Shown here in pieces: positions 18,318 to 54,945 of a stretch of 64,000 nucleotides of DNA. The notes below the pieces were generated by a model. That model searched no databases and was not told the DNA's origin. It was given only the letters and a program-made list of their open reading frames with translations. The position numbers and the translations under genes are program-made. The stretch's first letter is position 1. The number at the start of each line of letters is the position of its first letter. Origin of the DNA: Cordylochernes scorpioides (lineage: Eukaryota > Arthropoda > Arachnida > Pseudoscorpiones > Chernetidae); the NCBI GenBank assembly GCA_030710605.1, contig CP092886.1:52774305-52838304 (forward strand), read 5' to 3'.

Positions 18318-18429
18318 AACATTGAATATAATAGCTATTTCAAAAACCAAATATCTTAGTCATAATTGGTATGCATAATAAAAAACTGCTGATATAAACC
18401 AGAATAATGTAAATAATATGAACAACCCA

Positions 18430-18640
18430 AAGAAAGAGAAAGCCGAGATGTATAATTTCCATATGTTAGAGCGGAACCAGTGGTCACGAAAGAAGTGGCA
18501 ACCCCCAATTTGCCTACGTCAAGAAAAAACACGCGCTGCGGGGCGGGCGGACGGACCTTGGGGCTGACAACTTGCTGGCCTCGGTCGAAGGCATTGTTCG
18601 CCAGGGGTTGCCTGGATTTCTCAGCTTCTTCATGCAATAT
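18430..18640 (-). pseudogene. GC-rich coding-like fragment (haplotype 1)
   Basis: On the reverse strand the reading LHEEAEKSRQPLANNAFDRG, then QQVVSPKVRPPAPQRVFFL, is open, and it is open again in the other allele at 33130-33340 with few changes. The composition is far GC-richer than its flanks. It is probably a fragment of a retrotransposon open frame. The family is not recognised. Confidence 0.35.
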
Positions 18641-19030
18641 TAGATATATCACTGTACCTACACTGTATTTATTACTAAACACACAACATTTCCTGGAATA
18701 CTCACTCATTAGAGGCAATGATAGATATACCACTGCACGCACACTGTGTTTATTAACAAACACACCAGGTGTTTCCCGAATTTTTTACTGATTGCAGGCA
18801 ATGATAGATATACCAATGCACGCACACTGTGTTTATTAACACACACACCAGGTGTTGTCCGAATTTCTTACTGATTGCAGGCAATGATAAATATACCACT
18901 GTACAGTGCGCACTGTGTCTATTACTACAGACTTCAGGTATTGCCTAGATTTCTCACTCATTACAGTTAATGATAGGTATTCCATTGTACGTACATTGTG
19001 ACCGACTTTACATACACCAGGCACTGCTTG
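18630..19030 (+). repeat. 83-bp minisatellite (haplotype 1, about five units)
   Basis: GCAATGATAGATATACCA recurs at 18715, 18798 and 18881, a period of 83. Each unit contains CGCACACTGTGTTTATTA and CACCAGGTGTT. Outer units are more diverged. The other allele (33340-33645) has one unit fewer. Confidence 0.85.
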
Positions 19031-19279
19031 TTTATCTTAGTACCATTTCAGCCATAGGTAGAAATCTCTCCGTGTGCACACATAATGTCCCATTCTAAAT
19101 ATTAGGTGTAGCCTAGAATAATTATTAGCCTTCATGCAATTGTAAATATACCACTGTGTAGATATACAACCTGTATATAAAGTATTGCAGTGTGAGTATA
19201 TAATCAAATATAATGTGATAACACTTGTTACCTTTAAAATATATAGTATTTTTTAAATTTTAAATTTTCGAATAAAACA

Positions 19280-19400
19280 GCTTAATTCTTCACTGCAATG
19301 GGAAAATATTGGCAGGACCTGCTAATCAGTGGTGAATCTCTCAGTGGTTCGCCAGTTAAATCTACCAAGCCGCTGTAATGTTACATTGGGTTGTTATATG
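19280..19400 (+). repeat. Diverged family F fragment (haplotype 1)
   Basis: CACTGCAATGGGAAAATATT, GCTAATCAGTGGTGAA and CAGTGGTTCGCCAGTT parallel the family F core. The allele is at 33895-34015. Confidence 0.6.
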
Positions 19401-20744
19401 TCCGTCTCATTAGTGATATTCTTGGCTGTGGGATATTTAAAGAAACTGAGCTTAAGTATTGTTGAAGCCCCAGTATATTAAAATATCCATCGAACATTGC
19501 CTTTCCGAAAACAATCTAGTTAGGCCTAAACCAAATATAAGGCGTACCACACATCTATATAAAAGAAACGAAATAATTTTAGCGTGTAGTTCTTATTTAA
19601 ATAAAACATGCTAGTGTCCTTACTGCGGTGTAAAATATTATGTAAGAAAAATATTAAAGACAATAGGAATATTTGCATTCATAAATAGAGAAGAAAAATC
19701 GCGCTAAATCCTTATGCTTAATTAGTTATCGATGTTATTCTACTCTTTGGTACTATGGTACTACTGGTGATACATGAACTTTATCATTTTTTAAAATATT
19801 TAAATCCTATATTCAATTCTATTGAAGAATAAATTTATAATCATATTATGATATCCAATTAATCTCGTTATTAAAAACATATTTTCATTAATCCTGATAA
19901 TTCCAATGACAGAAATGTACACACTGCACTTTATAGTATACATTTTGAAATCAGTTTTCTGACGTTGACGGTGCATCCTTACTTTCCCCTGTCAGTATCG
20001 CTATCAGACTTTGTGTCATTTAGTCACCTTACTTATGTCACATAAGCAAATTATAAATAGGCCCATCTCATATTGCGATGTTGATTTCACTTCATTGAAA
20101 CCATTTTATTTTAAAACTTATTTAATTGATTAATTTTATTGTGGTTGTCAAGTTGAATTGATAAAAGGTTACAACACTTTATAGTGTAATAACCAATATC
20201 AGTATTACCACAGATAATTTACTCAGCAACAAATATAGAAGTTTCAAATTCGAGATTCTATCCTGCTATATTTAGGTAAAATAAATAAATAGTGAAACAC
20301 CAAAAACCAAACTTACAACATCAAGTGAAATATTTCATTTAGAACCCTATTTCACTCGAAAGAATTTAAACCCTTCTAATCTATAGGATTTTTAAGTCCC
20401 TTTTAATTTGTTATAAGACATTTTTCTTGTCTACGAAGTTATAGTTTAATATAAGAAACATAAGGTCTTAAAATCAACTCTAGTCTATCTTACTATAAAA
20501 GAAAACAATACCTTTCTCAATATAAGATTATGTAAATAATGTTTACAATCCGACAACATCAGGTGTGTAATGGGATTATGGGTAGAAAGTCCGGAGTTGC
20601 GACCAGCTCTCCCCGTTACCGACAGAACGGGGGGAAGATTCAATTAGCTCAAATCTTGTTAAGGATAACGGTTTGGGTAGAACCTCTGTTTCAAGGATTT
20701 ATATACAGAAGGTGTTCCATTTTTAAAACAGCGAATTTATTGAT
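19401..20744. other. Non-coding AT-rich stretch (haplotype 1)
   Basis: No motif. The 20160-20400 part is one of the most diverged intervals between the two alleles. Confidence 0.5.
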
Positions 20745-21640
20745 TTATTGAAAATAATTTACAAATGTTTTTACAATTTATTGGTGTAAGGTGCGGCCTA
20801 GACCTTTATGCCCGCATCAATGTTTCCAGACAATAAGGTTTCGTTTTAGAATATTTTAAATAGAACATTACAACAGACTTTAACGACTTTCCGAAGACCC
20901 TCCAGATTTCTTCGGTTTTATATATCTAAGAGCAGGTTCCAGCAAGCCAAAAAGATAAAAACCCATAAGGGTCAAGTCTGGGTATTTGGAATAAATGTTC
21001 TTAAAAGAGATGTACAAAATCATGATTTCATTTCTCTTTTCGACGAGGTATCGACGCGTTGAATGTGAAGTATTTAGTCACTCGGAAACAAATGTGGGAC
21101 TTCTTTTAGTGAATAATGGATATAAGACATGTATTTTGGTAAATTTTAGAATTTTATCTTGACATTTGGGTCTCCTCTTTATAGGAAGCTTCCCATTGTA
21201 GTTGAAACCTGCAACAATCATGAAGTATTTTAAGAACCTTTCCTTGCATTGTTGATCCAGTTATTAAAGGTGTTTATTTGAAAGTTAGCGTAGTAATTGC
21301 CACGGGGTTGATTGCTATCATTGAGGTAAACCAATGCCTCGTCCACTGTAACAACATTCTTTCAATTTCATCTTCTAGGTACGTTTATTAATCAGGGCCC
21401 TGTTGGAGTTATTGCATCCCTCGATATATAGTGCGACTTGAGAACACGATCTTTCGCCTTTCTACGTTTTTAAAGCTGGTTTTCCTGATAATACGGTTAA
21501 CGGTAAAAGTTGGTTATTATGGAAATGTTCCTTTGAGAAGGTGGATTCTCTCTGACAACCATTGCCTTCATCTTTCTTTCGGTTGGAGGTAAAGGTTTCT
21601 TCAGGCACCTTTTTTCATATTTTCGTTCAATTCTATATAT
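20745..21640 (-). pseudogene. mariner-like transposase pseudogene (haplotype 1)
   Basis: On the reverse strand, ETFTSNRKKDEGN and a VRENPP-like helix-turn-helix lead at about 21600-21520 are followed by VTVDEALVYLNDSNQP (first catalytic aspartate kept) at about 21345-21300. Next come KILHD and a YNGKLPIK-like segment with frame changes at about 21230-21170. The last block is YPDLTLMGFYLFGLLEPAL at about 20990-20935, where the family has 'SPDVSPMDF-aFGLLK', so the third catalytic aspartate is glycine. This lineage, with 'VAGFSYNGKLKI', is a common animal mariner group. Multiple stops make it non-functional. The allele is at 35345-36250. Confidence 0.75.
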
Positions 21641-22028
21641 TTAAAATATTTTAATTTACTCTTTTATTGTGTGCACTTAGTAAAAAGAAGTAGCAACATT
21701 ATTTTATTTTATAATTTTGATAATTTAGGTACACGAGTTAATATATTTCTCCTAGGAATGTCTGAAAACGTAACCTTTTACAAAATTACTTATTATTCTA
21801 GGCATTTTGAAAATTTAAAAATATTTTTATTGGATATTAATCAACACTTGCTTTTTCGAATAAATAAAACATTACTCGGATCGTGCGCTTCTTTCGCGAA
21901 CTGCATATTTAAAAATCTTTCTTTTAAAAATAGAACACTCTCTGTATTTATCGCAAATATTTAAATTATGTAAATAATAATTTGTATATAAAAATAGTAT
22001 TTATTATTAATTTATTAGCGTGATACTC

Positions 22029-22054
22029 CTGTTGAAGGACTGACAAGTCCGAAA
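22029..22054 (+). ncRNA. Hammerhead-like core of a Penelope-type 3' end (haplotype 1)
   Basis: CTGTTGA is followed by stem II AGGAC/GTCC with loop TGACAA and then GAAA. It is followed by TCTTGAAAATAAAAGG. The same block occurs at 36665-36690 and at the 3' end of the Penelope-like element at 62923-62948. The core has U at position 6 instead of A, so activity is doubtful. Confidence 0.5.
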
Positions 22055-22354
22055 TCTTGAAAATAAAAGGTTTGTACAAGAAACTTAGCTCTGGAAGCTT
22101 TATTTATTTTATAATAATTTATCCCAAATATTAGCAAATTTATAAAACCCTTGGATATGTAGTACCCGTGAGACCATATACAAACTAATATATATTAATA
22201 ATATAAAAAAGGTATAAGGTTACATTCTGAATACTAAAAAGAGGCATATTAGAGCCTATTAACACCGCGGTTATAAAAAAACAGTACATTGATTTACATC
22301 AAGTTGATGATTGTTTGTTTTTAATTTAATCTCTGGAAATAGAGATTCAGTTAA

Positions 22355-22517
22355 CCCTGTCTATAGCGCCCCCTCTTGGGACTCATCAAAATAGGGTGCA
22401 AAAGAGTGGGGGTGCTGTAGACAGGTCACTTTTAATGCAAATCGCATCATACTTCGTATTTAATATCGAGCGCTATAGAGAGGGAGGCGCTATGTAGAGG
22501 GGGCGCTATAGACAGGT
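22355..22517. mobile_element. piggyBac-like MITE, haplotype 1 only
   Basis: The 163-bp element is flanked on both sides by TTAA (22351-22354 and 22518-22521). Its ends are 21-bp inverted repeats with one mismatch: CCCTGTCTATAGCGCCCCCT at the left, and ACCTGTCTATAGCGCCCCCT when the right end is read on the reverse strand. TTAA target duplication with CCC-type ends is the piggyBac signature. It has no coding capacity. The other allele lacks it, together with about 35 adjacent bases, so the empty site is not exact. Confidence 0.8.
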
Positions 22518-22879
22518 TTAATTGTATGTATATTCAATGGTATCCAAATTAATTTATCACCTCATAATTACATGTTTAAGGACCTTCGAATATATATATA
22601 TATAATTTTATTTATTTATATAGAGGCTAATTCATAATAAATAGACTAAAATGTTTAAGAATGCCTGCTAGAAAAACATTCAAAAAACAACCTATATATA
22701 TAGGAAATGATACATTTATATCGTAAAATATCAAAATATAGTTAGTGATTGATGTATATCAGCTATACAAATATATATTTATATTATAAAAAGAAAAGAG
22801 ATTCTGTTTGATTTTTGGAATTAGGTTGATATATTGAATTATTATTAATTGTTGCTTGATTTTGGTATCCATGAGTATC

Positions 22880-23175
22880 ATTATGATATTGTTCTGCAGT
22901 CGTGGCAATAATAATCTTGAAAATATAAAGTCTGAAAATAGTTTTGATCAGAGATTTATTTTATTGATCTAAAGGAATATATAAAAAAACATGGTTTGAT
23001 AAAAGTACTGCCTGGCTTAAGGCGTAAGAATAAAAACATGAAATACTTATTTACATAATGTACAAAAGGTTGAGCCAGCCATTGGAATAAAACAACAACG
23101 AGTTTTTATAGGGGAAGAGTGACCTCTGGCGGTCGATTTAGCAGAATATTTGAATCTATGAAAATATGATTTTAA
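22880..23175 (+). repeat. Repeat family R, copy 2, haplotype 1 only
   Basis: TTTGATAAAAGTACTGCCTG, GCTTAAGGCGTAAGAATAA, GTTGAGCCAGCCA, AACAACAACGAGTTTTTATA and GACCTCTGGCGGT match the copy at 63660-64000. The allele near 37195 goes directly from an AT repeat to the downstream flank. Confidence 0.7.
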
Positions 23176-23910
23176 ATAACATTTAATAAAAACTAGAAAG
23201 TATATTAAAGGGTCGATTATGGATACTTTTTTAAATAAAGAAATTAGGCAAAAAATATATTTAGGAATATAAAATATAGAAAAACCACTATTGAATGATA
23301 TTGTAGCGTAGAAATCAAGTCTTGGAATATCTTAAGATGTGAAAGTATTTATTGATGACGTCGGTACGACAGGTCGACAATTATCAACAAATCAACCAAT
23401 CTACAGCTAGAGAATATCGAGAAAGCAAGCTAGACAACATTTATGATGATTTTACAAATATTAAGTAATAAATCTGTTTTAAATATTTCCATTGAAAAAT
23501 TAAATTGATTAATAAAATATAAATTATTTCTTCACCACAATATATTATAAATATCACTTTATTAAAACTAGACAAACTCAATTTTGAGGAGTGGTAAGGC
23601 GCAATTGAACAAAATTTCCTTGCGATGGCGCCAAGTAAATGGTTACCTTTTACGCCGACAGATGGCAGACACAAGCTATAGCGCTTCACTATTCCTCCCT
23701 CACCTCTAGTTCCTAAATCCCACCAAATTGAATGACTAAACACAATATAAAGGTAAAGACTCTTCTAGTAAGGTATATCGATTAAGGAGGATCAGAAGAT
23801 GAGTTTCTTTTATTGTATAAATGCTACGAGCTTTCGGGCAAAAGCCCTTCGACAGGCAAAAAAAATAACTATACAAAGAAAGATAAATAACGATTTATAT
23901 ATCAAATCCA

Positions 23911-24371
23911 CATGTATGATCCCATTCTCTTCCCTCTCAGTTAACCTTTCCCGTTTCCTCAAACCCTTTGGCATCCGTACCTTTTTTACTAACACACCTA
24001 ACCTCCACTCACTCCTTAGGCATCCCATCACAAAAACCGACTCCTCCACTGATCCTCTAACATCTTCTGGAGCAGTCTACTCGGTCTCGTGCCAACAGTG
24101 TCCTGCCACCTATGTGGGGGAGACCGGTAGAACCATCGCCATCAGAATGACCGAACACACACGCAACATCACCAACCGAGATACCCGTTCCCTTATTTTC
24201 CAACACATTGCATCTTCTGGCCATTCCTTTGACACTGCTAACCCAACCATTCACTACAAAAATATCTCCAACCTACACCAGAGATTGGTTCTAGAATCCA
24301 TAGTTTCATCCAAGCTACACAGCATAAATAGAAAAATAGACATCCCCGCAGCCTACACAAACTACATTTAA
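23911..24371 (+). pseudogene. Penelope-like C-terminal GIY-YIG endonuclease domain (truncated)
   Basis: The open frame extends from an ATG at 23799 to TAA at 24371 (190 codons), but about the first 35 codons are antisense of the inverted arm, so the real coding part starts about 23905. It opens with MIPFSSLSVNLSRFLKPFGI, the linker preceding the endonuclease in Penelope-like proteins. In the 190-codon numbering, VYSVS is at 93-97, CQQC at 98-101, TYVG at 104-107, arginine at 111 and EH at 119-120, which together form the GIY-YIG fold with its cysteine pair. The reverse transcriptase domain is missing. The domain itself is uninterrupted, which fits a young insertion, but it has no proper start. 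Confidence 0.85.
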
Positions 24372-24528
24372 ACCTCACACATGTTTATTTCAATAGCCCA
24401 AACCATGCGCCGTCTCGTGGTCTCAGACAGCAGATTTAATATTTACTTTATTCAAAATCGGTTTTCAGTTAAGATTAACATATATATAAATCGTTATTTA
24501 TCTTTCTTTGTATAGTTATTTTTTTTGC

Positions 24529-24552
24529 CTGTCGAAGGGCTTTTGCCCGAAA
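24529..24552 (+). ncRNA. Hammerhead-like core in the Penelope-like 3' arm
   Basis: CTGTCGA, then stem II AGGGC/GCCC with loop TTTT, then GAAA. A GCTCGTAGC hairpin that could be stem III follows. The inverted copy lies on the reverse strand in the left arm, at about 23832-23855. Consensus is CUGANGA, so position 6 is U rather than A. Confidence 0.5.
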
Positions 24553-24689
24553 GCTCGTAGCATTTATACAATAAAGGAAACTCATCTTCTGATCCTCCTT
24601 AATCGATAAACACAATATATTATAGAACGAAAATTTACAATTATACCGGAAATGTTTCTTTTTAACGAAAAATCGAAATTTATTTTAAG

Positions 24690-24785
24690 GAGATATAACG
24701 ATTATTTCTAACCTTAGGGATGAGTATGATAGGATGAATTGTGATGAGTAATTATAAACGGAAAAATAAAGTGTCCAGGGATGGG
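24690..24785 (-). repeat. Fragment of the tRNA-like 352-bp repeat family
   Basis: AAACGGAAAAATAAAGTGTC then CAGGGATGGGA, with a preceding GATGAGTA segment, parallels GAACGGAAAAATAAAAGTGT then CCAGGGGCGGGA at 58725-58757. The allele is at 37850-37955. The match ends inside the tRNA-like part. Confidence 0.55.
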
Positions 24786-24825
24786 ACATCCCATAATCGT
24801 AAATCGCATTATATTGTATCACACT

Positions 24826-25865
24826 AAATAATGTTCACACTTGGTTATCTCAATGTCTTTAATAAAGGTCAGTGTTATCAAAATTAGAAACTATTTTAGA
24901 CGCGTAAGATTCTTTTTGAAATTAAACAATTTCTTCTGCACTTACTGCAATGGAAAAATTAATGGGAGGGTCTGGCTCATCAGTGGTGAACCCTCCCAGC
25001 GGTTTCATCAGTTTATTCTACCATACTGCTGTTATATTGCATTTTTTCGATCTTCCTTTTATAGTGATACTTTTGTTAGACTCTTGGAATGTGTATTTTA
25101 GATTAACTATGGACATAATCTTTGAGGGCAGCAGAATTACATACAATTATAGAAATATATAATATGATTCGAGCAATCGCTCTTCCGCAAATATCAAATC
25201 GAGTATTTTATTAGAACATTTATATTACGATGCACTATTGCAGTAAGGGCAGTAGAAATTGTTTAATTTCAAAAAGAATCTTACGCGTCTAAAATAGTTT
25301 CAAATTTTCATAACAGATGGCGCTCTAGTGTATCGTAATATAAATGTTCTAATAAAAGACTCGATTTGATATTTGCGGAAGAGCGATTGCTCGATGCATA
25401 TTATATATTTATAATTTTATGTAATTCTACTGTCCTCAAAGCTTATGTCCATAGTTCATCTAAAATACCCATTCCAAGAGTCTAACAACAGAATCACTAT
25501 AAAAGGAAGATCGAAAAATGCAATATATGTAGAAGGCGGAATAATTGTTACGAAAAAATGCAATATAACAGCGGTATGGTATATTAAACTGGCGAAACCG
25601 CTGGGAGGGTTCACCACTGATGAGCCAGGCCCTCCCATTAATTTTTCCATTGCAGTAAGGGCAGTAGAAATTGTTTAATTTCAAAAAGAATCTTACGCGT
25701 CTAAAATAGTTTCTAATTTTAATAACAGATGGCGCGCTAGTTCATCGTAATATAAAAGGTCACTGTGTATCAAATATATTTTAGAATTATTATCTGAATC
25801 GTGATTTACATGCTAAAAAGTAAAACTCCCTTTAGAGTCGTCCATCAGTGTATTGGTCCAACAAA
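24826..25865 (+). repeat. Repeat family P, copy 3, split by a family F insertion (haplotype 1)
   Basis: The left part (TTCACACTTGGTTATCTCAA...AATAAAGGT) and the right part (GAATCGTGATTTACATGCT...CCATCAGTGTATT) correspond to the continuous sequence at 285-515. The two halves are separated by 24883-25754. The allele begins near 37986. Confidence 0.65.
24883..25754. mobile_element. Family F fold-back element with about 19-bp target duplication
   Basis: AAAGGTCAGTGTTATCAAA at 24864-24882 is repeated as AAAGGTCACTGTGTATCAAA at 25755-25774, with one substitution and one indel. The ends are long inverted repeats (24885-25160 against about 25430-25735) containing GCACTTACTGCAATGGAAAA and CTGATGAGCCAGGCCCTCCC. 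A second nested inverted pair (25172-25232 against 25343-25400; TCTTCCGCAAATATCAAATC) brackets another copy of the right-hand end. Non-coding. The allele carries the same element with a further Penelope-like insertion. Confidence 0.7.
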
Positions 25866-26734
25866 AATAACCAAAACCATATAGAAATTTTCATATTGTA
25901 AAATTATGAACGCTTTTGCAGTAGTGCATGATGCCTCTTTACGATTTCGAGTAAATTCTAATATCTTTATACATATTTAGAACAGATTTTATTTTCAAGT
26001 AGAATATAATAGTAAGCAAATTAATATGTGATAGAATATGCTTTGGAAGACCTTATATGAATCCTCTAAAATATCATTTTTTCTATCCATTAACTGTTTT
26101 GTTAAATGTATAGGTGAAGTATAGACCTTTTGTGCGACAATCCTAAGAATCGTGCGATGAATTAAAAAATAAAATTAAAAAATCTAATTCATCAAGTTGG
26201 AAGTTAAGAGGTGGATTTAAGTTTTCGCCGTCTTTAAGGAGTGGATTAAGGAATAACTTTGTTGCCTCTCAAGAGTTGAAGTAATTCTAGAGCTTAGCGG
26301 TCTAGCAGCCGTCAGCACATCTTGGAGAGATTCCCTGGAAGCCACTGAGGACAAATCCTCAACATCTCGCGAGTAATTAAACTCCGAACTCTCATTAACT
26401 CTAATTTCTCAGCGCGTGGATTTTATGGCTTTCACCTAGTTAAACAACACAATTATTCCAAGACTCTCCTAATGAAATTTAAATCCATTAAATACTCTCT
26501 AAAAAAGTTGATGGAAACTGACGAATTCTTTGAAGCTAAAGCTTTGTGCAGATAAAAACGCCGATTTAATTATTCGAACGGGAAAATAGAAATCGAATGT
26601 AATAGAATTTGGAAAATATTTTACTTGAAAGCATGTTATTGCATATGCAAAGAAAACTTGAAAAGTAAAATATAGAATAATGTCTACTCTAGGCCTAACT
26701 TGAAACAAATATGGCCGCATTGCAGACCAAGATT
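25866..26734. other. Non-coding stretch (haplotype 1)
   Basis: Nothing recognised. About 100 bp near 25865-25965 is missing from the other allele (junction at about 39248). Confidence 0.45.
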
Positions 26735-27040
26735 CTACACCCTACACATTAAGTAATTCAGCCTAACTTATTTAGTTACATGTAATCTACATTTATTAAT
26801 ATAAACCTAGTATAGACTTACATATCTGATTGACAAATGTTTAGTTCAACTTAATCTATGATATTCATGCAATCTATACACAACATTTCTTAATTAAAAC
26901 CTCATATAGGCTTACATATGTGATTGACCGCTGCATAGTTCAACCTGACCTAGAGTCTACATGCGTAATCTATATTCAACATTTCTTCATTCAAGCCCCG
27001 TATATAAGCCACATATATGATTGCCCATTACATATTCTTT
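26735..27040 (+). repeat. 96-bp tandem repeat (haplotype 1, about three units)
   Basis: ATTGAC..TAGTTCAAC starts at 26829 and 26925, a period of 96. Units contain TAATCTATATTCAACATTTC and ACTTACATATNTGATTG. The other allele (40050-40450) has one more unit, nearly identical to its neighbour. Confidence 0.8.
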
Positions 27041-27244
27041 GAATATTCCTCATATTGAGGTTTATAAGAATTTAAGAAATTAATTTCTCTAGTGTACGGA
27101 TTCTATGGAAGAAATAGTCCACTTCCCTACCGATTAACGAATTAACACGCGGCTAAATTTCGCTAATATATGAATATGAAAGGAAGCGCAAACATATATA
27201 TATATATATATTACGATGTACTAGAGCGCCATCTGTTATCAAAT

Positions 27245-27423
27245 TATAAAACTATTTTAGAGGCGTAATATTCTTTTTAAAATAAAACAATTTCTACTGT
27301 CCTTACTGCGATGGAAAAATTAAAGGGAGGGCCTGGCTCATCAGTTAATTTTTCCATCGCAGTAAGGACAGTAGAAATTGTTTTATTTTAAAAAGAATAT
27401 TACGCCTCTAAAATAGTTTTATA
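27245..27423. repeat. Family F palindrome, 79-bp arms
   Basis: Arms at 27245-27323 and 27345-27423 are close to perfect inverted copies, separated by a 21-bp loop containing GGGAGGGCCTGGCTCATC. Each arm ends inward with TTTCTACTGTCCTTACTGCG then ATGGAAAAATTAA. Confidence 0.85.
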
Positions 27424-27537
27424 AAATATATATATATATTAGAAACAAAAGATCCATATCCTGACCAGGCTCACACGAGCATTTCTAGATGGCAGAGCGC
27501 AATCTAGTGGAACAAAAAACTACTAAACATTTATTTA

Positions 27538-27689
27538 ATATAAAACAAAAGGATCTAAAAGCGTGAATGTTTCTTTTATACATAAAACGAACTTCTACTG
27601 TCCTTCTACTGTCATCGCAGTAAGGACAGTAGAAGTTCGTTTTATGTATAAAAGAAACATTCGCGCTTTTAGGTCCTTTTGTTTTATAT
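27538..27689. repeat. Family F-related palindrome, 68-bp arms
   Basis: Arms at 27538-27605 and 27622-27689 match at 66 of 68 positions by my count, with spacer CTACTGTCATCGCAGT. The outer part CTTTTATACATAAAACGAAC links it to the solo end at 5400-5515. Confidence 0.85.
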
Positions 27690-27724
27690 GTATAGATGGC
27701 GCGTTATTGCTTTGTGTTGAATTA

Positions 27725-27728
<4 letters not shown>

Positions 27729-27767
<39 letters not shown>
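27729..27767. repeat. (TA)n microsatellite
   Basis: About 19 TA repeats. Confidence 0.95.
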
Positions 27768-27768
<1 letters not shown>

Positions 27769-27829
27769 AAAATGTTCCCGATTATTGTAAATTTCTTGAA
27801 ACTAATAAAGTTAAAGTAAGGCTGACGTC

Positions 27830-28025
27830 CCCAGAAATAGCCGTGACAACCTGGCGCCACATGACTTCACCACAGGAAAGGTCCGAACTTTGACCCCGGT
27901 AGAGGGAGAAGCTCCAAAGCCGGGGCTGTTAGAAGACAATTGGAAGAAAGAGTTCAAAGTAAATGCGGTCGTACTGGGCAGTCTCATTGCCGGAGCCATG
28001 TAAACACGTCTGTTTCTAGGAAGTT
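27830..28025. other. GC-richer coding-like fragment of unknown origin
   Basis: This segment (for example GACCCCGGTAGAGGGAGAAG) is shared with the other allele at 40800-41035. Reverse-strand readings such as MAPAMRLPSTTAFTLNSFFQ are open in both but differ in length. No family is recognised. Confidence 0.35.
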
Positions 28026-28243
28026 GTCTTCTTGTCGCTACTAACCTCTGTAATGTTCATTCCCATATACATTTATATTATTTTATAGTTTTACATATAT
28101 TATATACAATATTAACAAATAATTTTTATTAAAAAAAAATGTTTTAATATTTATCAAAACCTTTTAACACATTATATATATTTGAAGTAAACAAATCAAA
28201 TGTATATAACTGTCTCTCGTGAATCAAATGTTTCATTTTTTGC

Positions 28244-28270
28244 CTGTAGAAGGGCGGCTCCAGCCCGAAA
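28244..28270 (+). ncRNA. Hammerhead-like core of a solo Penelope-type 3' end
   Basis: CTGTAGA, then AGGGC..GCCC around GGCTCCA, then GAAA, then GCTCGTGC and ATAATAAAAGAAACTT. This matches the 3' arm layout at 24529-24590. It is absent from the corresponding place in the other allele. No coding remnant is attached. Confidence 0.5.
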
Positions 28271-28827
28271 GCTCGTGCATATCATAATAAAAGAAACTTA
28301 TTGCGAAAGGTTGTAGTTTTATTTTAACATTATATATATATAACAATATATATAATCAACAGTTAAATGAACTCTTATCAAATTTAAAGAGGAAGCCTTC
28401 TTTCGTGTTGAAAACAAAATACCTCCGGGAGCATAGGTACTAAACGTTTCGGATAGGTGGCTTGTAAACTGATTATTATTTCTGACACTCTGATGAATTC
28501 CTCGGAATCAATAGAATAATATATATAATAATGCAAACAAATCGATGGGCTAGAAATGTATTGTTAAGAGGGTTTAAGGAATATAATTATATAGATTTGA
28601 ATACACCCGAGATATACCGAATATGTTTGATAGAATATTACTCTGAACAATTTCTAGCTGTCAGAGGCATATCACATCAGGTCTCTGCCTCTAGGCGGAT
28701 ACACACAGGTCTACCATAGAATTATAACAGAGATCCAGCTATTGTAAAACGTAGTCTAGATAATTACAAGGTGCCATCTACATAATTGTAAAATATTTTA
28801 GCGATATCAAAGATAAACACAACTCCC

Positions 28828-28930
28828 TAATCAAAATTCGAAACTATTATAGACGCATATGATTATTTTTTTTTAAATAAACAATTTCTACTGTCCTTAC
28901 TGTATTGAAAAAATTAATGGGAGAGCATCA
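28828..28930 (+). repeat. Diverged family F left-end fragment (haplotype 1)
   Basis: AAATTCGAAACTATTATAGA, TTTCTACTGTCCTTACTGTA and AAATTAATGGGAG match the element's left arm. The allele is at 41768-41872. Confidence 0.6.
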
Positions 28931-31440: not shown

Positions 31441-31604
31441 CTAGACAGCCGTCAGCCTTATTTAAAATTTGTACATAAAATAATTATGCCTATAGGTAAA
31501 TTAAATGTGAAAGGCTTAAACGGGGCTTGAATAATGTGAATATCCTCTGATGTGTTTTGAATTGATGTAAAGAGAAACTTTGTGACAAATACTCTCCTCA
31601 AAAC

Positions 31605-32713: not shown

Positions 32714-32728
32714 ATTATCCACAGGTTA
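32714..32728 (+). repeat. Left 15-bp target duplication of the split insertion
   Basis: ATTATCCACAGGTTA. The same 15 bases occur at 50681-50695. A version with one difference (ATTATCCATAGGTTA) occurs once at 45762-45776 in the uninterrupted allele. Confidence 0.85.
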
Positions 32729-33011: not shown

Positions 33012-33129
33012 CAACTTTGAATATAATAGCTATTTCAAAAAGCAAATATCTGAGCCATAATTGGTATGCATAATAAAAAAACTGCTGATATAAACCAGAA
33101 TAATGTAAATAATATGAACAACCCAAAGA

Positions 33130-40043: not shown

Positions 40044-40049
40044 AAGAGT

Positions 40050-45026: not shown

Positions 45027-45046
45027 CCCCCCCCCCCCCCCCCCCC
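45027..45046 (+). repeat. C homopolymer of 20
   Basis: Allele of the 13-C run at 32061-32073. Confidence 0.9.
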
Positions 45047-45280
45047 ACACGAAAATATAATGAATTAATTATCATATATTTAAAATATATGAAGAAATAT
45101 ACTTACGTTTCCAAATTCACAAAAAGAAATAAAATAAAAGAAAATCAATAGAATTCGATGGTTCAGAAAAGATATATATTCTAATTTGTACGTAAATGAC
45201 AGGAAAGAAGTATATTTCCATCAAGTTCATTACGGACCGTTAGGAGTTAACACACCATGAATTACATGGCTCTCACACAC

Positions 45281-45368
45281 ATAATCAAATAAAACAGGAA
45301 TTTATAAAATTCATTTATCAATAATTATTGATAAATGAATTTTATAAATTCCTGTTTTATTTGATTAT
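45281..45368. repeat. Perfect 88-bp palindrome, haplotype 2 only
   Basis: Arms 45281-45324 and 45325-45368 are exact inverted copies with no spacer. The left arm (ATAATCAAATAAAACAGGAA...) is present in haplotype 1 at about 32311-32354, but the right arm is absent. A second small palindrome (GAAAGGGATTATAATCCCTT) follows at about 45388-45410. Confidence 0.9.
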
Positions 45369-45761
45369 TTGAAAGGGATTATATGAAAGGGATTATAATC
45401 CCTTTCAATTCGCCTGATAATGCTCTTATGAATTTATGTGCGTTTATACTATTGGAAACCCTGAGAAAAGGAGATATGAATATTTGAAGAATTCTGGTGA
45501 AATCTCTAATTTCAAACTAACACCGATGTCGGTATATTTTTAATGTTCAATAGGCACCATATATTTAACAAGAGACATTATATTAAATATTTAAAATAAA
45601 TATTTATGGTGTTTTCCAAATTATTTATTTTAAAAGTGATTCTTTACCTATTATATTTCAAATCATAACATATATTGAATTTGAATTTAATTGGAGATCT
45701 CTAGTGATCAGAAAATTAGATTATCAGTGTGCCCATGTACCGTTCCAGGTTCACCTCTTTC

Positions 45762-45776
45762 ATTATCCATAGGTTA
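45762..45776 (+). other. Uninterrupted (empty) target site of the retrotransposon
   Basis: ATTATCCATAGGTTA joins the sequences that flank the retrotransposon in haplotype 1 (left flank before 32714, right flank after 50695). Confidence 0.85.
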
Positions 45777-46429
45777 AATTCTTAAAACCGCTAAAAGGGT
45801 TCATCACTAAATAACTTTCACGGTGTTAACATGGCACTATATTGACTGTCACTCAATAACGCTAAAACATTATGTTACGAAAATGCGTTTTGGGAGATAG
45901 CTCTACAACCATTAACCCTTCCACTGCTCACAACACACGCGCTTATATTGTTAGCCAGTGCCAGCTACCATATGAGTAGATTTACCCTAGGTGCTGGCAT
46001 TCTTTTTAAACACACAGTTTTCCTAATAAAAATAAAGCCTATATATATATATATAAAGAAGGCAAAACCAAGGTCATTGAAAACTAGTAAAAGCGCGTTC
46101 ACTATCCCTGATACCATCAAATGTGGGTAAATTTCAATGCTAAATGTGACAGAAAAATAGATGATAGATTCGGATAACACGCTAGCGCTTTGGAAGCAGC
46201 TGAACAAAGGCTAAATATCACACGCTGGCGGTTTATGGCCCCTCAGTAATGGCCTAATACAACTCCCAGGGGTGTGGTTGGTAGAGAAAGGGTTAAAATT
46301 CAGCCTTGCTGGATTCGGACATGGAATTTTCTTATTAGCATAATTAGAGGCGTCAACCGTTGCTCCACGCCAACTAGGCTGTGCGAGGGTGGTACAATAG
46401 AGATTTAATCTGACCCTCCGAGATACAAG

Positions 46430-46925
46430 CTAGGAATGTTCACCACTGAAGTGTCAAGCATTCCCAAAAATTCTTTGATCGCAGTAGGAATAGTATTTTT
46501 TTAGCTGTAATAGAAACATTCGTGCGTACATTTTAATTCCTTTAATTTTTATATTAATATGACGCGTTATTGATTTATATTAATTTATGCCTAACTGGAC
46601 TTGTAATTATTGTTAACGGAAGGGCATTGTCCGATGATAATACTTATATGTAATTCTAATGTCCTAAAAGCTTCTTTCCATAGTTTGCTTTAATACCATT
46701 TTCAGGATTCGACCCTTCAGTGCGCATATTATATAAGCAGAATCGTCCGATACAGTATTAGAGCTCTAAGAAGCGTTCTGGTGGATTAAATTGGCGAAAC
46801 CGCTGGGAGGGTTCACCACTGATGAACCAAGTACCCCCAATGATATTTTTTTCTTTTAAGTGTAAAAGAAACATTTGTGCTTTAATGTTTTTATTTCCTA
46901 TATATATTGTGCGTTATTGTAATAT
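46430..46925 (+). repeat. Family F-related ends (haplotype 2)
   Basis: Two pieces: GTTCACCACTGAAGTGTCAA ... CGCAGTAGGAATAGTA ... GACGCGTTATTG (about 46438-46572), and GGCGAAACCGCTGGGAGGG, TTCACCACTGATGAACCAAG (about 46795-46835). The allele is at 51340-51830. Confidence 0.6.
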
Positions 46926-46935
46926 ATAGACAATT

Positions 46936-47117
46936 CATGGTAAGCAGTTTGCGGATTTCTTTTATTTTTCTTTTCTTTTATTTTATTTTATATTAAAAAC
47001 GATATATAATCTCTCCTTGTTTGTACACTATAATTAGCTGAAGAAGGGCTTGCCCGAAAGCTTCCTTAATCGCGTTAATAAAAAGAGTTGCGGCGATATA
47101 TGATTCCCTCTTTCTAA
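46936..47117 (+). mobile_element. Penelope-type solo 3' end insertion, haplotype 2 only
   Basis: The 182-bp insertion is flanked by ATATAGACAATT (46924-46935 and 47118-47129). The other allele has the 12 bases once at 51832-51843. It contains a hammerhead-like core and a TTAATAAAAAGAGTTGC tail but no coding sequence. Confidence 0.8.
47038..47059 (+). ncRNA. Hammerhead ribozyme core with intact conserved bases
   Basis: CTGAAGA fits CUGANGA exactly. It is followed by stem II AGGGC/GCCC closed by TT and then GAAA. All core bases known to be needed in these two strands are present. Stems I and III are short and not clear by eye (GCTTCCTTAATC downstream), as is typical of Penelope-type hammerheads, so activity cannot be judged. 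Confidence 0.6.
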
Positions 47118-47712
47118 ATATAGACAATTGTTTATCTGAGAAACACATTTTTTCTTCTTTACATAACTCCTCACCATATCAATAAAAATATTCTCTAATT
47201 TCTCTCTCATTGATGAATGTGTGCTCTGTAAAAGTGTACTATGTCTTCTAATTATGACTCTGAGGTAGTAATAAGAGAATTGTAGAGGTGGGGTAACTTT
47301 ATCTTGTAACCATCTCAGGTAGAAATGATAGTCTTGTAGAAGTCGGAACCTTGTCTTATATTCAGGACTCTGAGGTATAAACGAAGGCTTTGGAAAGTAG
47401 GAAGGTTTTTATTGTAACCAAGGACTCTGAGGTAGAAGTCAGGGTCTTAATATTAAAACATTTTCTGCCAAAAAGACACGAATATTAGACAAAAGAAAGT
47501 TTTTAAAATAGAACATCGAGTTAATATTAGGGAATATCAATATTTTCTAACCACAGGGTGTCTGCTTGCTATTTTGCAATTCCAGAATTGTGCGAGAAAG
47601 CCTCGTCTTAAAGGAGCTTGACACCTTTGGGCAAATATTCTCTCCGGAAATATTTAATTGATCTTTTATTGTTGTAACAAACTTTTAAATAATATTCTTT
47701 ATTTGTTTAACC

Positions 47713-47883
47713 CACCAGCGAGTGCAAGTAACCAAACGGGGCTCTGGCACATTTGTAAGTGCAAAGTCGAACTGCTTTCACATGTGTAGACATGTGGTGC
47801 GCTTACAGTAAAAAGCAGTCGCTAACTACCCACCATGATTATCATGGCCTGTACCACGTGTACTAGGGATAAGCAAAAAAAAA
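47713..47883 (+). mobile_element. SINE-like retroposed element, haplotype 2 only
   Basis: The 171-bp insertion begins CACCAGCGAGTGCAAGTAAC and ends TAGGGATAAGC followed by nine A. It is flanked by TTTGTTTAACC at 47702-47712 and 47884-47894. The other allele has the site once (52386-52396, one base different). A poly(A) end and target duplication indicate LINE-driven retroposition. No clear tRNA, 7SL or 5S promoter is seen. Two small hairpins (CATGTGTAGACATG, CCATGATTATCATGG) are visible. Source RNA unknown. Confidence 0.75.
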
Positions 47884-48062
47884 TTTGTTTAACCATTAGT
47901 AGGTGAGATAGGCCAACATGAACTATATTTTCTATCCCAAAAATGTTATTATTTATATTATTTATATATATAAAAATTATTTTAATATGTATCTCAATTA
48001 GAAAAATATATCAAAGTTTAAAAAATTATAAAAGCAGCAGATAATTATTAGCCGCATGCAAT

Positions 48063-48560
48063 AGTATTAAATAGACCAGAAGTATGGAAAAAATACAGAG
48101 AAGAAAAACAGATAAGAAAATCAGAATGTGCAAAAGTATCCAAAAATCCAGGTGACATAGAGAAAGAGCATTTGCCATGTTTTCACTTTCAAATTTAGTA
48201 TGTAAATGGAGCTAAAGTGGGGTCCATGGGGAGTCCTTGTCATGGGACGGAGTTCCCGCTGAGAAGTGTCGCTTTATTTAGATATTCCTTTCATTGATCC
48301 AAAACAAAATTGGAATAATTAGCGCTATATAAGTGTCATAGGGTCAGCAGCTTTTGTCTCTCGCAGAAATAATTATAATAGTAAGTATATACGTTTTATT
48401 TTAATAAAATATCCTTTGTTATTATATCACGTTTAAAATACTTTATTCTAAGACATTTTTGGATATATATATAGCTCCCAACTTTGTTTCATTCTTTGAC
48501 GTGATGTTCAGATGATGTGGTTTTTGACTTATATCCCATGTGGATATACATATATACGTA
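48063..48560 (+). promoter_or_regulatory. Low-divergence block with TATA-like box and splice-donor-like site
   Basis: This block and its allele (52559-53055) differ at about eight positions, while both flanks differ much more. It contains CGCTATATAAGTG (TATA box-like, 48326-48332), then GTCAGCAGCTTTTGTCTCTC, and TATAATA with GTAAGT (48381-48386; GTATGT in the other allele), which resembles a 5' splice site. This could be a promoter with a first non-coding exon, but no downstream coding exon is recognised. Confidence 0.25.
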
Positions 48561-48735
48561 TATATTAAAATATCAACATAACTGATGTGTCCGGGCAAGT
48601 TAAAAATGTTGCTAAATTAAATTTCTGTTTACCATGAGCCTACATATTATTATTATCTCAATTTTGGGAGTTGAGAAACATTTCTACCTGACATATAAAA
48701 AGGTGCCTAAATTTTATCGTTGAGGTAGAGCCTGT

Positions 48736-48769
48736 ACCACGCTAACGAGTATCAACTGCCCTAAAAACG
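48736..48769 (+). ncRNA. Decayed hammerhead motif (haplotype 2)
   Basis: TACCACGCTAACGAGTATCA then ACTGCCCTAAAAACG lines up with CACCACGCTGACGAG..CCCGAAAACG at 61181-61205, with G5 and the GAAA altered. The allele is at about 53236-53269. Confidence 0.45.
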
Positions 48770-49212
48770 TTTATTCAAATTTTTCTAATAATTTGAAAAT
48801 TGTTATCAGTATCTCGGACTTGAGACCAGGAGAAGCTGATAATTCAGTTTGCCCCAGGCTTCTCTAAAATGTACGCGGAGGTTGCTTTTTATATTCCAAT
48901 TGAACCATAGGTATCGTAGTTATCTATAGACTTTACGCTCAATCTATCCTGAATCACCTTTTTTCAGGAGCATTTAGGACTTCGATATAGCTATCCGTGA
49001 CCTCGCCTAAAATATCAGTATATGTGAAGAGATCTAGCTAAATATAAACGCTAGGATGTCTTTATTTTACGGGTTATATGAGACCGCACCGTTCTTTCTA
49101 ACTCCAAATATAGCTGACCATTCAGAGGTAGGAGAGTACTTCGCTATTCCTAAATTCAACCCATATCTATCTAAATATTCGGAGTAAGTGGAGAAGTGTA
49201 GGCTGTATCTAG

Positions 49213-50150
49213 CCTTAAATATGCCAAACTTCCGTAGTATGAGAGAAGGTTTCTATATCTAACCTCAACTATGCCTAAAACTTCCTTGGTATGTGAGAAG
49301 GTATCTATATCTAACGTCAACTATGCCTAAAACTTCCGTGGTATGCGAGAAGGTTTCTATATCTAAAGTCAACTATGCCTAAAACTACCGTAGTATGTGA
49401 GAAGGTATCTATATCTAACGCAACTATGCCTAAAACTTCCGTGGTATGTGAGAAGGTATCTATATCTAACCTCAACTATGCCTAAAACTTCCGTGGTATG
49501 TGAGAAGGTATCTATATATAACGTCAACTATGCCTAAAACTTCCGTGGTATTTGAGAAAGTATCTATATCTAACGTCAAATATGCCTAAAACCTCCGTAG
49601 TATGTGAGAAGGTATCTATATCTAACGTCAACTATGCCTAAAACCTCCGTGGTATGCGAGAAGGTTTCTATATCTAACGTCAACTATGCTTAAAACTTCC
49701 ATGGTATGTGAGAAGGTATCTATATCTAACGTCAACTATGCCAAACACTTCCGTGATATGTGAGAAGGTGTCTATATCTAACGTCAACTATGCCTAAAAC
49801 CTCCGTGGTATGTGAGAAGGTTTCTATATCTAACGTCAACTATGCCTAAAACTTCCGTGGTATGTGAGAAGGTATCTATATCTAACGCAACTATGCCTAA
49901 AACTTCCGTGATATGTGAGAAGATATCTATATCTAACGTCAATTCTGCCTAAAACTTCCGTGGTATGTGAGAAGGTATCTATATCTAACGTCAACTATGC
50001 CTAAAACATCCGTAGTATGTGAGAAGGTATCTATATCTAACGTCAACTATGCCTAAAACTTCCGTGGTATGTGAGAAGGTATCTATATCTAACCTCAACT
50101 ATGCCTAAAACTTCCGGGGTAGTTGAGTACGTTGTATAACTAACTTTAAC
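49213..50150 (+). repeat. 52-bp minisatellite, about 18 units (haplotype 2)
   Basis: The unit contains TATATCTAACGTCAACTATG, CCTAAAACTTCCGTGGTATG and TGAGAAGG. The period of 52 was checked by the spacing of CGTCAACTAT (49989 to 50041). Variants (GTC/CTC, CTTCC/CCTCC, GTGG/GTAG) are distributed through the array. Degenerate units extend upstream to about 48950. No spacers, so this is not a CRISPR array. Confidence 0.9.
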
Positions 50151-50460
50151 TATGCCTGAGATTTGCGGGGTATGTGAGAATGTCCCTTTATCTATTTCTA
50201 ATTATATATTTTTTCATGCTCTAATGGGCAGATTCCTATATTTGACCGCCCACGCACGCTATAGGTGAATTATATAATATTTTCGGAAATTTTAAAACTT
50301 TATTTAGGCTATATAACATACTTTAAGTTGCTAAGATATATGGAAATTCTGATAAATTTCACCACATCAATTATAAACAGAACGTCCTTAAAGTGTGCCA
50401 AGAAATTGAAATGACATTTTTATGACAGCTCAATGAGACATTCAAATATTAAAATATTTG

Positions 50461-50560
50461 NNNNNNNNNNNNNNNNNNNNNNNNNNNNNNNNNNNNNNNN
50501 NNNNNNNNNNNNNNNNNNNNNNNNNNNNNNNNNNNNNNNNNNNNNNNNNNNNNNNNNNNN
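50461..50560. other. Assembly gap of 100 N
   Basis: Exactly 100 N at the end of the haplotype 2 contig. The next contig starts inside the retrotransposon. Confidence 0.98.
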
Positions 50561-50680
50561 AGAGGTGGCCATTTTTTGGAGCTAAGTCGGCCTGCCACTG
50601 AGTAGTGCTCCCAGTCTTGATGACAAATACAGACGCATTCTACTTCACCCAGTGTGGAGATAAGAAAGAAGAAAAAGAAG
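50561..50680 (+). mobile_element. 3' end of the split non-LTR-type retrotransposon
   Basis: GTCGGCCTGCCACTGAGTAG ... GTGGAGATAAGAAAGAAGAA ending in AAAAGAAG directly before the 15-bp target duplication. The GAA-rich tail and its second copy at 12555-12590 support a LINE-type 3' end. The 5' end is at 32729-32911. Confidence 0.65.
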
Positions 50681-50695
50681 ATTATCCACAGGTTA
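50681..50695 (+). repeat. Right 15-bp target duplication of the split insertion
   Basis: ATTATCCACAGGTTA, identical to 32714-32728. Confidence 0.85.
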
Positions 50696-51339
50696 TATTC
50701 TAAAAACCTCTAAATAGGTTCACCACCAATGAGCTTCCACGGTTTTAACAAAGCACTAATATGACTGGTTCACAATAACGTTAAGTCACTATGTTACGCA
50801 AATGCGTTTTGGGCGAAAGCTCTACAACCATTAACCCTTTCACTGCTCAACGTACGTGCTTATATTGTTAGCTAGTGCCATACACCATATGGGTAGATTT
50901 ACTCTAGGTCATTATTTTAAAACACAGAGTTTGTCTAATAAATAAACGCTGTATATATACAAAAACTGCCAAATCACGGTCATTGAAAACTAATAACAGC
51001 GCGTTTGCTATCCTTGATACCATCAATTTCGGGTAAATTTCAATGCTGAATAACAGAAAAATTAATGATAGATAACGCGCTAGCGCTTCGGAAGCAGCTG
51101 AATAAAGACTAAATATCACACGCTGGCGGTTTATGGTACCTCAGTAATGGCCTAATACAACTCCCAGGCGTGTGATTGGCAGAGAAAGGGTTAAAATTTA
51201 GCCTTGCAGGATTCGAACATGGAATCTTCTTATTAGCATAATTAAAGGCGTCAACCGTTGCTCCACGCCAACTACGCTGTGCGAGGGTGGGTTCAATAGA
51301 GATTTAGTCAGACCCTCCGAGATACAAGCTGGGAATGTT

Positions 51340-51830
51340 CACCACTGAAGTTTCAAGCATTCCCAAAAATTCTTTCGTCGCAGTAAGGATAGTAGAAGTT
51401 TGATTAAGGTTTAAAAGAAACATTCGTGATTTAATTCCTTTAATTTCTATATTAATATGGCGCGTTATTGATTTATATTAATTTATGCTTAACTGGACTT
51501 GTCATTATTGTTTGCGGAAGAGCATTGTCCTATGCAAATATTTATATGTATTTATACTGTCCTAAAAGCTTCTGTCTATAGTTTTCTTTAATACCATTTA
51601 TAGGATTCCATCATTCAGTGTAGCATATATAAGCAGAATAGTCCAATACAGTATTAGAGCTCTAAGAAGCGATTTGGTAGATTAAATTGGCGAAACCGCT
51701 GGGAAGATCCAACACTGATGATCCCAGCACCCCCAATAATAATTTCATCGCAGTATTTTTTTGATGTTTAAAATAAACATTCGTGCTTTAATGCCTCCAT
51801 TTTCTATATATAGAAGGCGCGTTATTGAAT
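51340..51830 (+). repeat. Family F-related ends (haplotype 1)
   Basis: Allele of 46430-46925. GTCGCAGTAAGGATAGTAGA and GGCGAAACCGCTGGGAAGA are present. Confidence 0.6.
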
Positions 51831-53702
51831 TATATAGACAATTGTTTCTTCTTTGCATAGCTCCACACCATACCACTCTAAATATTCTCTCGTTTCTCTC
51901 TCATCGATGAATGAGTGCTTTGTAGAATTGTAAGAACTTTGTATTCTAATTATAACTCTGAGGTTGTAATAAAGGTCTTGTAGAGGTGAGGGAACATTGT
52001 CTTGTAACCAGGTCTCTCAGGTAGAAATGATAATCTTGTAGAAGTCGGAACCTTGTCTCATAATAGGAAGTTGTTCGGAAAGTAGAAAAGTTTATATTGT
52101 AACCAAGGACTCTGAGGTAGAAGTCAGGGTCTCAATATTAAAACATTTTCTGCCAAAAAGGCACGAATATTAGACAAAAGAAAATTTTAATATATAAAAT
52201 CGAGTTAATATTAGGGAATATCAATATTTTCTAGCCACAGGGCGTCTGTTTGCTATCTTGCAATTCCAGAATTGTGCGAGAAAGCCTCGTCTTAAAGGAG
52301 CTTGACTCCTTTTAGTACATATTCGCTCCGGAAATATTTAATTGATATTTTATTGTTGTAACAAACTTTTAAGTAATATTCTTTATATGTTTAACCCTTA
52401 GTAGGTGAGATAGGCCGACATGACTTATATTTTCTATCCCGAAAATGTTATTATTTAAAATATTTATATATTATAATTACTTTTATATGTCTCAATTAGA
52501 AAAATATTCTCAAAGTATACAAAAATTATAAAAGCAGCAGACAATTATTAGCCACATGCAATAGTATTAAATAGACCAGAAGTATGTAAGAAATACAGAG
52601 AAGAAAAACAGATAAGAAAATCAGAATGTGCAAAAGTATCCAAAAATCCAGGTGACATAGAGAAAGAGCATTTGCCATGTTTTCACTTTCAAATTTAGTA
52701 TGTAAATGGAGCTAAAGTGGGGTCCATGGGGAGTCCTTGTCATGGGGCGGAATTCCCGCTGAGAAGTGTCGCTTTATTTAGATATTCCTTTCATTGATCC
52801 AAAACAAAATTGGAATAATTAGCGCTATATAAGTGTCATAGGGTCAGCAGCTTTTGTCTCTCGCAGAAATAATTATAATAGTATGTATATACGTTTTATT
52901 TTAATAAAATATCCTTTGTTATTATATCACGTTCAAAATACTTTATTCTAAGACATTTTTGGATATATATATAGCTTCCAACTTTGTTTCATTCTTTGAC
53001 GTGATGTTCAGATGATGTGGTTTTTGACTTATATCCCATGTGGATATACATATATACCTATATATTAAAATATCAACATAACTGATGTGTCCGGGCAAGT
53101 TAAAAATGTAACTAAATTAACGTCCCGTTTACCCTAATCCTACATATTATTAACTCAAATTTGGGAGTTGAAGAACATTTATACATGACATAAAAAGTCG
53201 CCTATATTTCATCGTTGAGGTAGTTCCTGTACCACGCTAACGAGTATCAACTGCCCTAAAAACGTTTATACAAAATTTTCCAATGATTGCAAATTGTTAT
53301 CAGTATCACGGACTTGAGACAAGGAGAAGCTGATAATTCAGTTTGCTCCAGGCTTCTCTAAAATGTACGCGGAGGCGGCTTTTTATATTTCATTTGAACC
53401 ATAGGTATCGTGGTTATCTATAGATTTTGCGCTCAATCTATCCTGAATCACTTTTTTTTCAGGAGCATTTAGGACTTCGATATAGCTATCCGTGACCTTG
53501 CCTAAAATATCAATATATGTGAAGAGATCTAGCTAAATATAAACGCTAGGATGTCTTTATTTTACGGGTTATATGAGACCGCACTGTTCTTTCTAACTCC
53601 AAATATAGCTGACCATTCAGAGGTAGGAGAGTACTTCGCTATTCCTAAATTCAACCCATATCTATCTAAATATTCGGAGTAAGTGGAGAAGTGGAGGCTG
53701 TA

Positions 53703-54640
53703 TCTAGCCTTAAATATGCCAAACTTCCGTAGAATGAGAGAAAGTTTCTATATCTAACCTCAACTATGCCTAAAACTTCCTTGGTATGTGAGAAGGTATC
53801 TATATCTAACGTCAACTATGCCTAAATCTTCCGTGGTATGTTAGAAAGTATCTATATATAACGTCAACTAAGCCTAAAACTTCCGTGGTATGTGAGAAGG
53901 TATCTATATCTAACGTCAACTATGCCTAAAACCTCCGTGGTATGTGAGAAAGTATCTATATATAACGTCAACTAAGCCTAAAACTTCCGTGGTATGTGAG
54001 AAGGTATCTATATCTAACCTCAACTATGCCTAAAACCTCCGTGGCATGTGTGAAGGTATCTATATCTAACGTCAACTATGCCTAAAACCTCCGTGGTATG
54101 TGAGAAGGTATCTATATCTAACGTCAACTATGCCTAAAACTTCCGTGGTATGTGAGAAGGTATCTATATCTAACGTCAACTATGCCTAAAACTTCCGTAG
54201 TATGTGAGAAGGTGTCTATATCTAACGTAAACTATGCCTAAAACTTCCGTGGTATGTGAGAAGGTATTTATATCTAACCTCAACTATGCCTAAAACTTCC
54301 GTGGTATATGAGAAGTTATCTATATCTAACGTCAACTATGCCTAAAACTTCCGTAGTATGTGATAAGGTATCTATATCTAACCTCAACTATGCCTAAAAC
54401 TTCCGTAGTATGTGATAAGGTATCTATATCTAACGTCAACTATTCCTAAAACTTCCGTGGTATATGAGAAGTTATCTATATCTAACGTCAACTATGCCTA
54501 AAACTTCCGTAGTATGTGATAAGGTATCTATATCTAACCTCAACTATGCCTAAAACTTCCGTGGTAGGTGAGAAGGTATTTATATCTAACCTCAACTATG
54601 CCTAAAACTTCCGGGGTAATTGAGTACGTTGTATAACTAA
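53703..54640 (+). repeat. 52-bp minisatellite, about 18 units (haplotype 1)
   Basis: Allele of 49213-50150. The variant order differs, with local higher-order repetition: TATATGAGAAGTTATC units at 54301 and 54457 are 156 apart (three units), and AACTAAGCC units near 53868 and 53972 are 104 apart (two units). Confidence 0.9.
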
Positions 54641-54945
54641 CTTTAACTATGCCTGAGATTTCCGGGGTATGTGAGAATGTCCCTTTATATTATTTCTAAC
54701 TATATATTTTTTCATGTTCTAATGGGCAGATTCCTATATTTGACCGCCCACACACGCTATAATATATTCGGAAATTTTAAAATATTATTTAGGCTATATA
54801 ACATACTTTAAGTTGCTAAGTTATATGGAAATTCTGATAGATTTCACCACATCATTTACAAGCAGAACGTCCTTAAAGTGTGCCAAGAAATTGAAATGAC
54901 ATTTTTATGACAGCTCAATGAGACATTTAAATATTAAAATATTTG

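Follow-up and report, generated by a model that had tools for sequence, protein, structure and literature searches.

The apparent large duplication in this part of the Cordylochernes scorpioides genome is most likely an assembly error, as indicated by collinear copies, base-exact joints between contigs, a short repeat divided between two of them, limits of homology that fall at contig ends, and local doubling elsewhere in the assembly. Very probably, it is a false duplication in which two haplotypes of one X-chromosome locus have been cut and interleaved in a single scaffold. The window, that is, the whole stretch of 64,000 nucleotides analysed, is C24:52774305-52838304 in an assembly of 2.62 Gb and 24 scaffolds, of which C24 has exactly 180,100,396 bases. 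A window coordinate c corresponds to C24 coordinate 52774304 + c, with zero and negative values lying upstream, and a further 100 kb was read on either side, giving 264 kb in total for this contig pair. Two transposon frames used as protein queries matched C. scorpioides records best, and because five listed proteins of the scaffold bear LAZ67_X locus tags, C24 is chromosome X.

Five contigs are concerned, in the scaffold order Z, P1, P2, B and C, and every joint among them is a 100-N gap. Contig Z lies upstream and ends at -24589, 24.6 kb before the window. P1 starts outside the window at -24488 and ends at 13260, the gap at 13261-13360 separates it from P2 (also called A, 13361-32911), B occupies 33012-50460 and C occupies 50561-64000; these four contigs, like the repeats, arrays and target sites given below, are read on the plus strand. 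The remaining gaps, at 32912-33011 and 50461-50560, are false joins of A to B and of B to C, and each has exactly 100 N, in agreement with an earlier note on this DNA that had placed both junctions at such gaps.

The alignments described in that note, of B first with A and then with C, were reproduced: B 33012-45777 runs in order with 18317-32729, the start differing trivially from the 18318 given before, and B 45762-50460 runs in order with 50681-54945. Chance similarity is excluded, because single blocks of 2.6, 3.7 and 3.9 kb follow in order at 90-95% identity. About 1.4 kb of the 17,449 bases of B is uncovered by alignments, in seven pieces of 15-364 bases (sum of intervals), and a 52-bp tandem array of 18.7 copies in B (49226-50194) has its partner, of 18.4 copies, in C (53721-54677). 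In matched blocks the mismatch is 5.3% between A and B and 8.1% between C and B. Per 500-bp window of a global alignment it ranges from 0.4% to 15.6%, apart from two insertion-rich stretches of A, 23546-25138 and 27725-28783, which show 22.6-34.8% and are partly unaligned in the block alignment. The longest open frames of the doubled stretch (at least 95 codons, among those listed) resemble transposon pieces by eye.

Insertions distinguish the versions on both sides, with transposon marks in 5 of the 14 examined, and transposon-like insertions with target duplications and inverted ends occur on either copy. Differences of this sort go beyond scattered read errors and speak against a homotype false duplication, in which the same haplotype would have been assembled twice from error-rich reads; although gaps and side-by-side copies would equally be expected from such an event, it deserves next to no credence here.

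The flanking contigs end and begin inside an insertion with a 15-bp target duplication around it, just as had been noticed before. On the left, ATTATCCACAGGTTA at 32714-32728 is followed by the first 183 bp of an interspersed repeat (32729-32911), recognized from its matches throughout the genome, at which A ends; beyond B, contig C opens with the last 120 bp of the same repeat (50561-50680), and ATTATCCACAGGTTA stands again at 50681-50695. The middle contig has the single, uninterrupted site, ATTATCCATAGGTTA at 45762-45776, identical in 14 of 15 bases with one mismatch, all three sites being read directly from the letters. The insertion is thus polymorphic, with a target-site duplication on A and C and a matching empty site on B. 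The piece 32729-32911 has 3189 candidates genome-wide, of which the best 40, the window itself among them, were scored, and in each of the 11 other copies retrieved (from the 39 others among the matches listed) the base matching 32911 adjoins the base matching 50561. The element is therefore 303 bp long, and A and C belong to a single contig that was severed between neighbouring bases. The large retrotransposon interior that the earlier note had supposed to lie between them is accordingly discarded, since 50561 directly continues 32911 with nothing missing. The repeat resembles a short interspersed, non-autonomous retroelement in its 303-bp length, its 3189 candidates, its 15-bp target duplication and its A/G-rich 3' end, and differs in that the 3' ends vary among its other copies; no tRNA-type head was found in scans of the window, where the gap splits the element.

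Doubling is not limited to 18318-54945, as had first been supposed, because window 1 to 18316 is doubled as well, by contig Z, which B directly continues. From -75185 to its end, Z is collinear with -24488 to 13260 and 13361 to 18316; the chain with P1, covering Z from -75185 to -30358, has 4.8% mismatch over 33,054 aligned bases. Z is uninterrupted across the first gap of the window, where 13260 pairs with -30358 and 13361 with -30357, so that this cut involved no loss of bases. Likewise, the last base of Z pairs with 18316 and the first base of B with 18317, which marks 18316/18317 as the point in A homologous to the cut between Z and B. As Z and B adjoin at homologous bases, together they are one haplotype, haplotype 2, and the proper place of B is directly after Z. 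Haplotype 1 consists of 1-13260, 13361-32911 and 50561 onward, with a counterpart in B up to 54945. Z and B amount to 68.0 kb, and P1, P2 and C to 54945 amount to 61.7 kb; over the 53,482 aligned bases of both haplotypes there are 2,793 mismatches, or 5.2%.

All three internal joints are base-exact. Contig ends that arose independently would hardly give such a fit, whereas cuts give it readily, and cutting is therefore the likeliest origin of the joints. With the bracketing target duplication, these joints bear out the order proposed earlier, A and then C; together with the ending of homology at contig ends, they also uphold the proposal of one locus with B as an alternate haplotype lodged between A and C. 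Presumably, two overlapping contigs were assembled, each comprising one flank and one haplotype, the left flank with Z and B (haplotype 2) in one, and P1, P2 and C with the right flank (haplotype 1) in the other. A scaffolding step would then have cut the haplotype 2 contig once and the haplotype 1 contig twice, after which the five pieces would have been ordered Z, P1, P2, B, C with 100-N gaps between them. The 303-bp repeat would have been inserted on haplotype 1 only, and one cut may have fallen inside it by chance. The cuts were probably the work of a scaffolder; a GATC site is present at two of the three cuts, differing by one base in cut position, and is lacking at the third, and as GATC occurs once per 479 bases we draw no conclusion from these sites about a scaffolder signature.

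The outer limits of homology coincide with contig ends, and no duplication breakpoint was found in gap-free sequence, within any contig, over the 264 kb that were read here. A second copy was found neither directly beyond the right end (query 54946-56500; 40 of 3016 candidates scored) nor 1.1-1.8 kb beyond the left end (40 of 2531 candidates scored), and judged from these searches the flanks are likely to lack one. These limits bear on the idea of a real segmental duplication, with the locus present twice on one X chromosome and its junctions hidden by gaps. The 5-8% mismatch is within the range of older paralogues, and the copies do stand side by side in the scaffold, but a real duplication needs the break in the Z-B copy to coincide with the very point at which homology changes over from Z to B, needs B to sit within a 303-bp repeat whose two parts fit together without a missing base, and needs homology to stop at contig ends, while local doubling is also seen at conserved genes on several chromosomes. 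It is thus highly improbable, and a false duplication of two haplotypes remains the preferred reading.

Some points weigh against this preferred reading. For alleles, a mismatch of 5-8% is high, with 500-bp windows reaching 15.6% even where the alignment is good, and inbred animals were used in the earlier C. scorpioides genome project, according to the available portion of PMC8136511. The accessible text of PMC5088348 describes X0 males as the ancestral state in pseudoscorpions and singles out C. scorpioides for its exceptional X morphology. Should its males be X0, a lone male would never be heterozygous on the X, and the sample must therefore have been a female or a pool; the copies would then be alleles or pooled haplotypes. 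For the same reason, that the sequence is an X chromosome, the test by half coverage on both copies that the earlier note suggested needs care.

Doubling is also found outside this locus. Beyond the right end of the window, 125298-143582 has an inverted counterpart in 164000-144350 across a 100-N gap, with 3.1% mismatch over 17,499 bases. A continuation of the inverted copy to the right of the gap at 144250 into the partner of B's right end was considered and is unsupported, in view of the search with 54946-56500. Members of the MCM, chaperonin and proteasome families are each expected in a single copy. When exon matches were grouped into loci by eye, 3 of 8 MCM loci were doubled or tripled, as were doubled 2 of 8 chaperonin loci (leaving out fragments on C23, at C17:61.8 Mb and, five of them, on C15) and 3 of 13 loci of proteasome subunits (12 without a stop-riddled match on C24). 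Altogether, 8 of 29 loci are doubled, with 38 copies, and the members of each pair share a chromosome and are no more than about 165 kb apart; the MCM pair on chromosome 7 is inverted around a 100-N gap.

Homeobox genes, for which the best 150 of 332 candidates were scored, gave 141 copies after 9 further homeodomain matches inside multi-homeodomain frames had been dropped, and 32 of 107 loci are doubled by the rule of equal score and the same profile span within 250 kb. Among these best 150 candidates, the equal-scoring homeodomain pairs that share a chromosome are separated by no more than 250 kb in 36 cases and by more in 1; some such neighbours could be true tandem genes. By locus, doubling affects 11 of 15 on the X and 21 of 92 on autosomes (Fisher p = 0.0002, from the same best 150 of 332, with loci treated as independent even though several X loci belong to one Hox row). 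A looser rule gives 11 of 15 and 25 of 87, and a tighter one 10 of 16 and 17 of 96.

An MCM gene on chromosome 3 is present in three local copies, as are homeobox loci on chromosomes 5 and X, and this favours a pool because a single diploid animal has at most two alleles. The same artefact would then have drawn its second haplotype from other individuals in a pooled sample, with more than two haplotypes, instead of from a single female with her two X chromosomes. In its available part, PMC8136511 reports that the earlier project pooled 12 inbred individuals for mate-pair libraries. On the other side, no description of the sample behind the chromosome-level assembly was found in the literature searched, a third copy could also stem from genuine duplication nearby or from a repeat in the assembly, and the copies on chromosome 3 are only 0.3-0.6% apart. 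A pool has somewhat less than an even chance of being the source; as a special case of the preferred reading, its probability overlaps with that of the whole.

Doubled pairs differ by 5.2% and 3.1% on the X, by 2.1% on chromosome 13 and by the 0.3-0.6% already given on chromosome 3 (both including coding exons), and by 2.9-7.6% on chromosome 7 (five blocks of at least 300 bases, some likely repeats); the values for X and autosomes are few and their ranges overlap. Old, diverged X haplotypes, about 5% apart here, might explain why doubling is concentrated on the X, in which case retained haplotigs would mark real X polymorphism, arising perhaps because recombination was suppressed, because the X carries an inversion or because cryptic lineages had been mixed in the laboratory stock; this explanation is unlikely.

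What is at stake is illustrated by the Hox genes, whose classes on chromosome 1 and the X are assigned by comparison with known homeodomain sequences. Chromosome 1 has, at 48.4-52.1 Mb, a row that runs in the order AbdB, a second AbdB-like gene, abdA, Ubx, Antp, ftz, Scr, Dfd, Hox3, pb and lab, and the X has, at 4.5-8.7 Mb, a second row of abdA, Ubx, Antp, Scr, ftz, Dfd and pb; no AbdB, Hox3 or lab turned up on the X among the homeodomain matches scored (best 150 of 332). Two Hox rows on different chromosomes are to be expected if pseudoscorpions share a genome duplication with spiders and scorpions. Five of the seven X genes (abdA, Ubx, ftz, Dfd and pb) are themselves doubled locally, ftz and Dfd with homeodomains identical between the two copies, and a raw count therefore mixes real duplicates with haplotypes. 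The case for an ancient genome duplication in arachnids has drawn on an earlier C. scorpioides draft genome, which was too fragmented for its Hox clusters to be counted, as stated in the accessible sections of PMC8136511. Since a later review, in the part available of PMC12576392, cites macrosynteny support that includes a pseudoscorpion, the two-row finding is not claimed as new. The chromosome-level assembly is the natural place to test this duplication further. If double counting affects some 30% of loci, it inflates the sizes of gene families, the number of tandem duplications, the genome size and the gene content of the X, and among homeobox loci the effect is strongest on the X; the simple remedy is haplotig purging ahead of counting.

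False heterotype duplication, or the retention of haplotigs, is a known kind of assembly error (in the available text of PMC9516828 and PMC8081667). As the former portrays it in that text, diverged haplotypes are assembled as paralogues on one scaffold, with gaps between the copies and inflated gene counts, and the present locus has such gaps between copies on one scaffold and, by a criterion of our own, collinear copies whose outer homology ends lie at contig ends. It differs in that the contigs of both haplotypes were, in addition, divided and interleaved, and in that inverted pieces occur elsewhere. The same excerpts of PMC9516828 put falsely duplicated sequence in older vertebrate assemblies at 4-16%, and the rates here (8 of 29 and 32 of 107 loci examined) are higher, although fractions of loci and of sequence are different measures. 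With a real tandem segmental duplication the locus shares two similar, adjoining copies, but no breakpoint was found in the contiguous sequence read, and it has base-exact contig cuts and the order of interleaved, overlapping contigs.

Among the homeobox loci of the whole genome, with 150 of the 332 candidates scored, local doubling, defined as equal scores and the same profile span within 250 kb, was found at 11 of 15 loci on the X chromosome (scaffold C24), compared with 21 of 92 on the autosomes. Hox rows lie on two chromosomes, at 48.45-52.09 Mb of C1 (chromosome 1) and at 4.49-8.65 Mb of C24. In the row on the X, five of the seven genes are locally doubled.

In the downstream flank of the window, the stretch 125298-164000 holds a near-copy in inverted orientation about the 100-N gap 144250-144349, with a mismatch of 3.1% between the two arms, and it is probably another haplotype piece put in the wrong place. 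Immediately beyond the window, 5,557 bases (64001-69557) are given as N, a run different from the 100-N scaffold gaps. Within the window, a partly inverted repeat array at 58533-59859, with units ~97% alike, carries three tRNA-Thr genes (GGT anticodon).

A GATC site is present at two of the three contig cuts, namely that between 13260 and 13361 in haplotype 1 and that between the haplotype-2 contigs Z and B, which matches haplotype-1 positions 18316 and 18317. GATC occurs here once per 479 bases. These sites may have been left by the enzyme used for Hi-C, or may be there by chance.

At three loci, C3:172.91-172.98 Mb, C5:129.02-129.09 Mb and C24:3.91-4.03 Mb, a gene is found in three local copies with equal scores, which is more than the alleles of one diploid and suggests pooled DNA or a genuine additional copy.
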